Of a stretch of DNA of 64,000 nucleotides, positions 23,710 to 52,158 are shown in pieces; position 1 is the stretch's first letter; each line of letters begins with the position of its first letter. The stretch is from Thermoflexus sp. (GTDB lineage: Bacteria; Chloroflexota; Anaerolineae; Aggregatilineales; Aggregatilineaceae): positions 124,001-188,000 of the forward strand of contig DYGX01000001.1 in NCBI GenBank assembly GCA_020724465.1, in the 5' to 3' direction. The position numbers and the translations under genes were made by a program. The notes below the pieces were generated by a model that saw nothing but the letters and a program-made list of their open reading frames with translations, was not told where the DNA came from and searched no databases.

Positions 23710-24651
23710 TCATGCCCCTTCGCGCTCGCGACGCAGCACAGCCAGACGCTGGATTTTGTCGCTTGTTTCGCGCCAGCTAATCCGGCTCAGACCGAACTTC
23801 TCGCGCAGCGCTTCCAGATCAACACCCCGCTCGTAGTCGCGGACGCCGCATGTCCAGCGCAGCGTTTCAAACGAGACGCGTGTCGTTACGCCTGCTGCCT
23901 GGGCCACATCGTGCAAAATGTACTCCAGGTTGCGCGCCGTGCAGTCGAAGATCGTGTCGGGCGGTCGGTATTGCTCCAGATACTCGTCGAGCACGTCCAG
24001 CCATTCCGGGTCCAGCGCGATCTTCCGCTCTTTGTAAACGTCGCTGCGGCGCTTGTGCCGGATGAACAGCACCGGCTCGCGCGGATCCCGGCGGTCGATA
24101 TGCTCTGGAGTGAGGGCCATGCACTCGCCCTTTTTGATGCCGGTGTCCAGCAGCAGGCGCAGAAGCAGATCGGGCCGTGCGTCGGGCTTCTCAGCGACGC
24201 GCAGGGCGTGCGTTTGTGCCAGGAGCCGCGCGATCTCGGACTCGGTCAGCACCGGTTGCAGCGGCGCCGCGCCCGAGCGTTGAAGCAGGGCAGCCGCCGG
24301 ATTGTCGGGCAGCACCTTATCTTTGAGCAGAAAGCCAAAGAAGACTTTGAGCGTTGTCACCCGGCGCGCGTACGATTTGCGGCTGCATGGCACGCCGCGC
24401 CCAAACTCGATCCATTCCATGAACCGCTCCAGCTTGCGCGTAGTGAAATCGTTGAGGATCGCCTCGCCGCCGAAGAACTCCACAGCCAGGCGCAGGTCCG
24501 AGGAAAACGCGTCGATGGTGTGCTGGCTGCGTCCTTCGTGCCGCAGATACGCCTGGAACGGCCCGATGGCCTCAGCGAGCGTGCTGTGCCGGGTCAGCGC
24601 ATGCTCGGTATCTGATGAGAACAGAGGAAGCTGTCGGCCTGGGAGCGTCAT
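23710..24651 (-). CDS. Tyrosine-recombinase-fold protein with catalytic residues lost
   Basis: 313 residues. The N-terminal SAM-like core-binding domain (about 23-110) and the C-terminal recombinase domain (about 130-305) are recognisable. However, the family R-K-H-R-H-Y set is mostly replaced: Arg I is K173 (TGIKKGE), His is E262 (ETLRW), the LGH histidine is L288 (FGLS) and the nucleophilic Tyr position is S297. Only the second Arg (R265) and a lysine near 199-206 persist. It should still bind DNA but not cut it. Codon use and GC look like the neighbours, and there is no integrase-associated tRNA or element nearby. The ATG is at 24651. The next gene on the other side starts across an AT-rich gap with an inverted repeat. 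Confidence 0.78.
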   Translation of the reverse strand: MTLPGRQLPLFSSDTEHALTRHSTLAEAIGPFQAYLRHEGRSQHTIDAFSSDLRLAVEFFGGEAILNDFTTRKLERFMEWIEFGRGVPCSRKSYARRVTTLKVFFGFLLKDKVLPDNPAAALLQRSGAAPLQPVLTESEIARLLAQTHALRVAEKPDARPDLLLRLLLDTGIKKGECMALTPEHIDRRDPREPVLFIRHKRRSDVYKERKIALDPEWLDVLDEYLEQYRPPDTIFDCTARNLEYILHDVAQAAGVTTRVSFETLRWTCGVRDYERGVDLEALREKFGLSRISWRETSDKIQRLAVLRREREGA

Positions 24652-50372: not shown

Positions 50373-50688
50373 GAAACATCTCGTCATACAACTGCTAACA
50401 TTCAGTGCTCTTATCATATCCATGACATCATCTGGGCAGGGTCACCGGTCACGTGTGCGCCGCATCGATTCAGCCTAAATCCGCACAAGCCGGGCGCGAG
50501 CATCGCAAGATAGCCGTTGCGCCGACGAAACCGGCGGTCGGACCACAGCCGGGGCAGGGAGCAGGGGAAAGATTGCCTGCAGATGGCCTCTGGGATCGAG
50601 AGCCTGCGCGATAGAGATTTGCACGCCGAGATGAATAGATGTAACATAAGTAAGGAAATGTATCATTATCTTGCATGAGCGATAAAAG
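50373..50688 (+). other. 316-base intergenic region before the TIR-recombinase gene
   Basis: No gene is supported here. A possible promoter is TTGCAC (50619-50624), a 17-base spacer and TAACAT (50642-50647). The end (about 50640-50690) is AT-rich compared with the surroundings. I found no direct repeat, tRNA-like end or clear inverted repeat that would mark a recombination site. Confidence 0.4.
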
Positions 50689-52158
50689 ATGCCGATGCAG
50701 ATCCTCATCGCTGCCGCTCCCAAGGATTCACCCTTTGCCGACTGGCTCCATCGCGAGCTGCAACGCGCGGGATATTCCAGTCAGTTTCTGCTCTATGCCG
50801 ACAATGCTGACGTAATCGAACACGCTGTTCGTGCTTGTCGTGTGGTGCTGCCTGTCCTCAGCCCGCACGCCGCCACCTGGCAGCTTCTTGGCTCTGTCGT
50901 GGCACTGGCTCAGCGCCACCACAAGCGAATTATCCCACTTCAGATCGCTCACCTTCCGGACCAGCCCGAATTTGTGCGCAACCTGTCGATTGTGGACCTC
51001 ACCGCGCTGACAGCCCCGCAAAAAGCCGTCGAGCACATCCTGCACCTGCTCGCCCAACACGGCGACCGCACCTTTGGCGCAGCGCGCGATGCCTATCTCC
51101 AGCGCGCCACACTCAAAGCCGAGAATACGATCGCTGCCTACCGCCGTTCGATCGAGTTGTTTCTGGATTTTCTGGGCGATCCGTCGCAGCGCGGGCGGTT
51201 GCCGATTCATGGGTTTGTGGCGCTCGCGCCGGACGACACGGCGCTGAGCGCGCTCAGCGCCGAGGATGCGCCCATCTTCCTGCATTTCGCCGAATGGATG
51301 CTCTCTGCGCCGTCGCGCCAGCCCGGAGACAAGCGCCCGTACAAAGTCTCCACGGTGGAGCTGCGGCTGGCGGGCGTCCAGAACTGGTTCCAGTTCATGG
51401 ATGACCACGGCTGGCTGCCGGCGGATTTCCGGCTGGCGAAAGCCCGGCGCATTGTGCGCGACGAACTGCGCAGCCGCTCGCGGCGCAGCGGACCGCCGCA
51501 GCCGCCCGATCACATCGAAGAATTGATTTACTACTTCGATCATCTACGCCGCCCGCTGCACCTCGACAAGCCCGACGTTGATCCCGAGCGCGTGCGCCGC
51601 TGGGAGCTGACACGCCTGCGCAACCGCGCCCTGCTGCACGCGCTGGCCGAAACCGGCGGTCGCATCAGCGAGATCCTCAGCCTGGATGTCAGTGACTTTC
51701 CGATCCGCTACCTGGAGCGCGGCGAGGTGCTGCGCGTTGAGGTCAGAGCCAAAGGCGGGCACACCTACCAGCTTCGCTTCCTGCATGCTCTGCCGGCGAT
51801 CAAAGCGTATCTGGACGCACGGGGTGCGGATCTACGCGCGTCCATCAGCGGCCGCGCGCCGCTTTTCGTCAGCCACGATCCTCGCTTTGACGGCAACCGC
51901 ATGAGCCGCGTAATCGCCTGGCGGGTTGTGCAGCGGGCTGCGCGCGCGCTCGGCTTGAAGAGCATCTCACCGCACGATTTCCGGCACTGGCGCGCCACCC
52001 AACTGATCAACGCCGGAACACCGCTCGATGTGGTGCAGGACTATCTGGGACATCGGTCGGTCGAGACAACCCGCGTCTACTACGCGCACACCGACCCGCT
52101 CCGCGTCGACGATGCGACACGACAGATCGGCTTGCCGCGTCCCGAAGATGAGGAATAG
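50689..52158 (+). CDS. TIR-like domain fused to a tyrosine recombinase with intact catalytic residues
   Basis: 489 residues. Residues 1-122 have the pattern of a TIR-2-like domain: ILIAAAPKDSPFADWLHREL, ACRVVLPVLSPHAATWQL, then VVALAQRHHKRIIPLQI. The position where NAD-cleaving TIRs have Glu (four residues after the Trp, W64) is G68, so it probably works as an interaction module. Residues about 125-260 are a SAM-like core-binding domain. Residues 290-489 are a recombinase with every catalytic residue: R325 (GGRISEI), K355 (AKGG), H429 and R432 (SPHDFRH), H455 (LGHRS) and Y464. It should cleave and rejoin DNA. The ATG at 50689 has only a poor ribosome site. It stands alone, with a converging gene 3 bases away. 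Confidence 0.82.
   Translation: MPMQILIAAAPKDSPFADWLHRELQRAGYSSQFLLYADNADVIEHAVRACRVVLPVLSPHAATWQLLGSVVALAQRHHKRIIPLQIAHLPDQPEFVRNLSIVDLTALTAPQKAVEHILHLLAQHGDRTFGAARDAYLQRATLKAENTIAAYRRSIELFLDFLGDPSQRGRLPIHGFVALAPDDTALSALSAEDAPIFLHFAEWMLSAPSRQPGDKRPYKVSTVELRLAGVQNWFQFMDDHGWLPADFRLAKARRIVRDELRSRSRRSGPPQPPDHIEELIYYFDHLRRPLHLDKPDVDPERVRRWELTRLRNRALLHALAETGGRISEILSLDVSDFPIRYLERGEVLRVEVRAKGGHTYQLRFLHALPAIKAYLDARGADLRASISGRAPLFVSHDPRFDGNRMSRVIAWRVVQRAARALGLKSISPHDFRHWRATQLINAGTPLDVVQDYLGHRSVETTRVYYAHTDPLRVDDATRQIGLPRPEDEE

Follow-up and report, generated by a model that had tools for sequence, protein, structure and literature searches.

The gene, its protein and its neighbourhood

Within the window, that is, the whole analysed stretch of 64,000 nucleotides, an open reading frame at 50689–52158 encodes a TIR domain fused to a tyrosine recombinase. 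The fusion is confirmed, and the coordinates and length given for the frame in an initial annotation of the DNA are correct. The features of the locus are as follows.

50619–50647, + strand: possible promoter, TTGCAC (50619–50624), 17 bp and TAACAT (50642–50647), overlapping the left arm of the palindrome; read from the upstream alignment and weak in this genome
50639–50666, + strand: dif-like palindrome, ATGTAACATAA-GTAAGG-AAATGTATCAT (arm, 6-bp centre, arm); from upstream conservation, the sole exact match in the genome and the GC-skew location in relatives
50689–52158, + strand: coding sequence of 489 amino acids, TIR domain fused to a Xer-like tyrosine recombinase; from the open reading frame, Pfam, orthologs and synteny
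50689–51063, + strand: TIR domain, residues 1–125, lacking the catalytic Glu (Val70 in the ungapped alignment) and with a shortened BB-loop region; from Pfam TIR_2, the structural model, the match to the SPARTA TIR (Z 17.4), alignments and a dN/dS of 0.22
51067–51582, + strand: core-binding (SAM-like) domain and linker, ca residues 127–298; from a weak Pfam Phage_int_SAM_1 match, the start of the TIR-less orthologs and a XerH structural match from residue 127
51583–52098, + strand: catalytic domain, ca residues 299–470, with R325, K355, H429, R432, H455 and the probable nucleophile Y465 (codon 52081–52083); from Pfam Phage_integrase, conservation and the structural match

The Pfam matches of the protein are TIR_2 at residues 6–117, with 43.5 bits (cut-off 28), and Phage_integrase at residues 309–468 (E 1e-26). 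An AlphaFold2 model was built from 21 window and locus sequences; its mean pLDDT is 83, and the N-terminal domain is predicted well. Foldseek alone gave mixed flavodoxin-like matches for this domain, which were then sorted by means of VIA-align. Residues 2–125 of the model match the SPARTA TIR-APAZ with a Z of 17.4 and an rmsd of 1.8 over 120 residues, residues 128–465 match XerA (Z 16.7), and residues 127–467 match the XerH–difH complex (Z 15.9). The profile and the predicted flavodoxin-like TIR fold together place the N-terminal domain in the TIR domain superfamily. The TIR-like domain recognised initially is thus borne out, also by the structure prediction that had been proposed as its check.

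The active-site set of a tyrosine recombinase is complete, consisting of R325, K355, H429, R432, H455 and Y465. The first five of these had been assigned previously, together with Y464 as the nucleophile. However, position 464 is F, H, L or V in several relatives, and position 465 is Tyr in all of them except L019; the catalytic residue is therefore most likely Y465, as judged from this conservation. The recombinase part has 356–366 residues, the size of XerS and XerH.

The initial annotation had asked for the fusion to be sought beyond this assembly, and it is found in nine genomes of the same family, f1 (G000, G002, G003, G004, G007, G008, G011, G012 and G015). The other f1 genomes comprise four, of genus g12, that carry the gene without a TIR domain, two with copies cut by contig ends, and three that lack the gene, two of which are 77–87% complete and one of which (G001) is 98% complete in five contigs. 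TIR-less relatives of the gene occur in the families f3, f4 and f5 of the order and also in f60 and, at 35–44% identity, in many families of the class. A fusion outside the family was looked for as well and rejected: in a search of 400 genomes of the phylum with the relative L034, only the window gene matched both domains among the frames that were read. A TIR domain in family f60 was considered and rejected, the long frame of G365 being without a TIR-like N-terminus.

The order of the genes is conserved in f1, namely histidine kinase, cobalamin adenosyltransferase, the TIR-Xer gene, small membrane protein, HflX and TrmFO (the product names are our reading of the sequences), and it is identical around the TIR-bearing and TIR-less copies where the flanks are covered. 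The gene thus stands alone in a core-gene region, just as had been noted. The plasmid, phage and viral collections contain neither a close relative nor such a fusion. The synteny shows that the fusion is inherited vertically, and an origin as the integrase of a mobile element, be it phage, plasmid or transposon, was rejected in view of the fixed core surroundings and the lack of a close relative in these collections.

The palindrome upstream of the gene

The palindrome is 28 bp long, non-coding, with an 11-6-11 layout, and is located 23 bp ahead of the start codon. Of its 28 bases, 7 are G or C, compared to ca 64% in the surroundings. It is present in one copy in the window, where 0.02 would be expected, and has a single exact match in the draft genome. 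In the upstream alignment of the orthologs, a left arm ending in TAACATAA is followed by a 6-bp centre and by a right arm starting with AAATG or TTATG. Wherever the upstream DNA is covered, the palindrome precedes nearly every ortholog in f1 and its nearest relatives (f4 and f5). The arms are symmetric at 7 of 11 positions in the window and at 7–11 of 11 in the TIR-less genomes of f1, f4 and f5; the palindrome of L039 is perfect, and a substitution in the outer part of one arm recurs in mirror image in the other in both L036 and L039.

The 18 f1 genomes contain ten exact matches to GTAACATAA-N6-AAATG, all ten upstream of the gene, and a version with one mismatch is found there in G004 and G008. 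Matches with one mismatch elsewhere occur in G005, G007, G010, G011 and G016. In the three genomes that lack the gene, even the closest matches have at least two mismatches. Where the DNA ahead of the gene is intact, this position holds the best match of the whole genome in nearly all members of f1. In G012 (L019), the palindrome was not found in the 164 bp upstream that extend up to the contig end. In G011, two of the dif-like copies located elsewhere, L120 (C62) and L121 (C34), have one mismatch each and similar flanks; they were considered as integrated elements, and this was rejected, as no clear element was found apart from the shared flanks.

Several f11 genomes have a different adjacent palindrome with a similar organisation, ATGTTACACAA-TGTTGA-TTAAGTAACAT, and one f17 genome has TTGCAACATAA-TACCAA-TTAAGTTGCAA next to the gene. 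No adjacent site was found in the f3 relatives. In two genomes, pairs of half-site-like motifs, ca 400 bp apart, are found at equivalent positions ca 17 kb from the f3 gene, namely in L167 (G026:C45, near 241,000) and L175 (G027:C14, near 71,200–71,600).

It should be pointed out that several TIR-bearing genomes have a degenerate right arm. Six of the eight TIR-bearing genomes, and none of the seven TIR-less ones, possess an extra arm (TTATGTTACAT, with one mismatch at most) 24–26 bp past the left arm, and the right arm of those that possess it is often poorer. This association between TIR and third arm does not constitute independent evidence, because the two features are physically linked.

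Terminus location and the Xer/dif interpretation

The maximum of the cumulative GC skew marks the replication terminus. In the stretch examined of G034:C24, the peak is at 565,538 and the site starts at 565,515, a distance of about 20 bp. The corresponding distances are ca 50 bp in G016, 320 bp in G004 and 550 bp in G008. In three f11 genomes, one of which is a single contig of 4.67 Mb, the site is 11–16 kb from the maximum within the 100–400 kb examined. In the window genome, the maximum is found 64 kb upstream of the site on the same contig (C53, of which the window is 124001–188000), corresponding to 1.45% of the genome. As for G017 and G013, their site is by a slope break beside a plateau, the maximum of which is 36–40 kb off. 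In two genomes of f3, where the gene has no adjacent site, the gene is 41–46 kb away from the local maximum, a third genome being covered on one side only. The gene order near the site in the window genome matches that of relatives in which the skew maximum is at the site.

For comparison, dif was located between 146 bp and 199.6 kb from the skew maximum in a published survey, with a median of 7.3 kb (PMC2731167), and in another the differences were within 1.39% of the genome at one sigma (PMC3025954). The 64 kb of the window genome thus fall inside the published range of 146 bp–199.6 kb, and the site is near the skew maximum in the way known for dif. It also adjoins the recombinase gene and occurs once per chromosome, in terms of a single exact match in the draft genome.

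The evidence points to a terminus-located, Xer/dif-like module of chromosome maintenance, which was overlooked in the initial annotation. On the grounds of sequence comparison, we consider it quite likely that the gene and the palindrome form the single-recombinase Xer/dif module of these Chloroflexota, organised in the same way as XerS and XerH, and the TIR domain is most likely an add-on to this module in one family. The protein would bind the 28-bp palindrome that is located in the terminus region directly 5' of its own gene, and it would bring the two copies of this site on a dimeric chromosome together within a tetrameric synapse. Recombination between the paired sites would then yield chromosome monomers, probably under the control of FtsK. 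FtsK-gamma genes are present in all 18 f1 genomes. Since they are present and the testable features of a single-recombinase Xer system fit, we infer that dimer resolution takes place at the palindrome. Two FtsK-gamma genes are present in 16 of the 18, one of them in a long frame and the other in most cases in a frame of ca 950–1050 amino acids. Three of the five integrase matches in the own genome were scanned and are far below the NCBIfam cut-offs for XerC and XerD.

A number of observations speak against the Xer/dif interpretation, namely the skew offset in the window genome, G017 and G013, the f3 relatives without a site, the three f1 genomes without the gene, a conserved second recombinase, referred to below as the C13 type, and the degenerate right arm in several TIR-bearing genomes. 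Searches of an open-access literature library turned up no paper on a TIR-bearing recombinase of this probable role in chromosome-dimer resolution, nor any account of a Chloroflexota terminus where a single recombinase adjoins a dif-like site. A single-recombinase Xer/dif module is thus apparently undescribed in this phylum.

Several alternatives have to be weighed against this interpretation. The palindrome could be only the operator of the gene's own promoter, with the recombinase acting elsewhere. In several genomes a possible −10 box indeed coincides in part with the left arm and is preceded, at a spacing of 17 bp, by a −35-like hexamer, which is TTGACA at the same spacing in some relatives. 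A consensus promoter scan gave no site at its threshold. However, the 11-6-11 layout and the absence of a second exact copy in the genome do not favour this option, and in four genomes the palindrome is at the GC-skew maximum, a location that no operator need have; we therefore regard it as improbable. Another option is that two recombinases share the site in the manner of XerC and XerD at dif, the TIR-Xer protein acting on the strong left arm and the C13-type protein on the degenerate right one. The C13-type gene (L245, G000:C13:4800-8000) has a 347-residue frame with apparently intact active-site motifs and is conserved in f1 with 63–84% identity, and the two arms often differ from each other in the TIR-bearing genomes. 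In the f4 and f5 relatives, however, the arms are nearly or fully symmetric, and there is no conserved palindrome linked to the C13-type gene, for which reason this gene was also rejected as the owner of the site. Such a division of labour is unlikely.

The reading put forward originally, that of a phase-variation or defence switch under the control of TIR interactions, draws on the frequent occurrence of TIR domains in defence, and the canonical TIR of L034 does score against the models of the Argonaute-associated TIR and of ThsB. On the other hand, the genome has one exact site and no convincing invertible pair, the only repeats flanking the gene being rich in G+C and such as chance would produce; phase variation is not supported. 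As for defence, the neighbours are conserved core genes with no defence genes among them, the fusion is absent from the plasmid, phage and viral collections, and PADLOC has no match for the whole window protein and gives only E values of 0.003–0.009 for its TIR domain alone. A switch of this kind is very improbable. The earlier reading is thus partly supported, namely in its description of a TIR module on an apparently intact recombinase in a core region; this TIR is without its Glu and therefore probably non-enzymatic.

A second Xer-like protein of 313 residues is encoded in the window at 23710–24651 on the minus strand. By our reading most of its catalytic residues are lost, including the Tyr, and it is apparently a conserved, dead recombinase beside the terminus. 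In eight f1 genomes with both on one contig, integrase matches of the same kind are found 17–33 kb from the TIR-Xer gene.

The TIR domain and comparison with known systems

We now turn to the TIR domain. The relative L034 (5001–6491) has a canonical TIR, the Glu of which aligns with that of the WVHKE motif of SARM1. In the ungapped alignment to L034, the position of the catalytic Glu is occupied in the window protein by Val70, and not by Gly68 as initially assigned. The Glu is missing all the same, as had been noted, since no acidic residue occurs across positions 60–75, and the domain therefore lacks the residue that characterises the NAD-cleaving TIR enzymes. In addition, the BB-loop region is ca nine residues shorter than in L034. 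Among the nine TIR-bearing copies, only L034 and L009 have kept the Glu. L034 itself looks chimeric, the N-terminal half of its recombinase grouping with genus g1 and the C-terminal half with g12, which suggests recombination within the gene; the TIR of L034 has its nearest counterpart in g1 (51–52%). The window genome has six further TIR_2 loci, one of them in a 554-residue frame on the same contig (C53:308131).

A comparison of the window protein with its closest relative gives a dN/dS of 0.22 for the TIR domain and of 0.046 for the recombinase, so that the TIR domain stays under purifying selection. Because the Glu is lost and the BB-loop region shortened in spite of this selection, the domain is probably a non-enzymatic assembly module in this genome and not an NADase. 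SPARTA TIRs form tetramers whose interface includes the BB loop, and their catalytic residue is Glu77 (PMC10474274); Xer synapses are likewise tetramers. By analogy, this suggests a role in subunit assembly, although the shortened BB-loop region argues against the SPARTA mode of assembly in the window protein. We tentatively favour a role of the TIR domain as a protein–protein module that helps to assemble recombinase subunits, or to draw in a partner, where the right arm of the site is in many cases degenerate.

The main rival is decay, in which case the protein would be an ordinary Xer recombinase apart from a TIR domain that it carries as a passenger without a current function. The dN of the TIR is ca seven times that of the recombinase, and such fast evolution fits decay too; the Glu and the BB-loop region are gone from most copies, and the domain is absent from the four g12 genomes at the same locus. 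On the other hand, the reading frame is intact in all nine copies, dN/dS is not near 1, and the window copy exceeds the TIR_2 cut-off and is modelled with a TIR fold. A passenger is a genuine, if somewhat doubtful, possibility. It is far less probable that the domain was recruited for chromosome maintenance such that four TIRs meet in the tetrameric Xer synapse and gate recombination; in this case, the lineages that have kept the Glu (L034 and L009) could cleave NAD and thereby couple failed segregation to metabolism or cell death.

The known settings of TIR domains are immunity and cell death, and the presence of one on a recombinase that most likely resolves chromosome dimers would tie the immunity toolkit to housekeeping segregation. 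The role of the domain is directly testable, because TIR-bearing and TIR-less orthologs share one locus in one genus.

Finally, the module can be compared with known systems. The single-recombinase systems XerS and XerH have recombinases of ca 356 residues, and the adjacent site is their hallmark (PMC5357621; also PMC2731167). XerS/difSL of streptococci and lactococci is similar in having one recombinase of ca 356 residues and a site beside the gene near the terminus (PMC5357621, PMC2731167). It differs in the centre of difSL, 11 bp compared to 6 bp in the window, and in lacking the added TIR, and the window protein is far below the NCBIfam cut-off for XerS (62 of 267 bits). XerH/difH of Helicobacter and Campylobacter has 354–362 residues, a 6-bp centre and a site that lies close to the gene, at the peak of the GC skew (PMC2731167), and XerH is a structural match of the model (Z 15.9). 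However, the identity is 21%, and there is no NCBIfam XerH model match for the window protein. Furthermore, the conserved Tyr of the present family is ten residues past the box His, compared to nine between H335 and the catalytic Tyr344 of XerH (PMC5241119), and the TIR is again an addition. By its sequence features, the window protein is thus organised as in the XerS and XerH systems, and no membership in either of these protein families is claimed for it.

The archaeal XerA/dif also employs a single recombinase, with an adjacent site in some species, and XerA is the best structural match to the recombinase part (Z 16.7); it is shorter, the window protein reaches 85 of the 220 bits of the NCBIfam XerA cut-off, and the TIR is once more added. 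With the TIRs of SPARTA (Z 17.4, rmsd 1.8, 120 residues) and SARM1, the fold is shared, and the Glu of L034 aligns with that of SARM1, but the TIR of the window is without this Glu and part of the BB-loop region, and it is fused to a recombinase.
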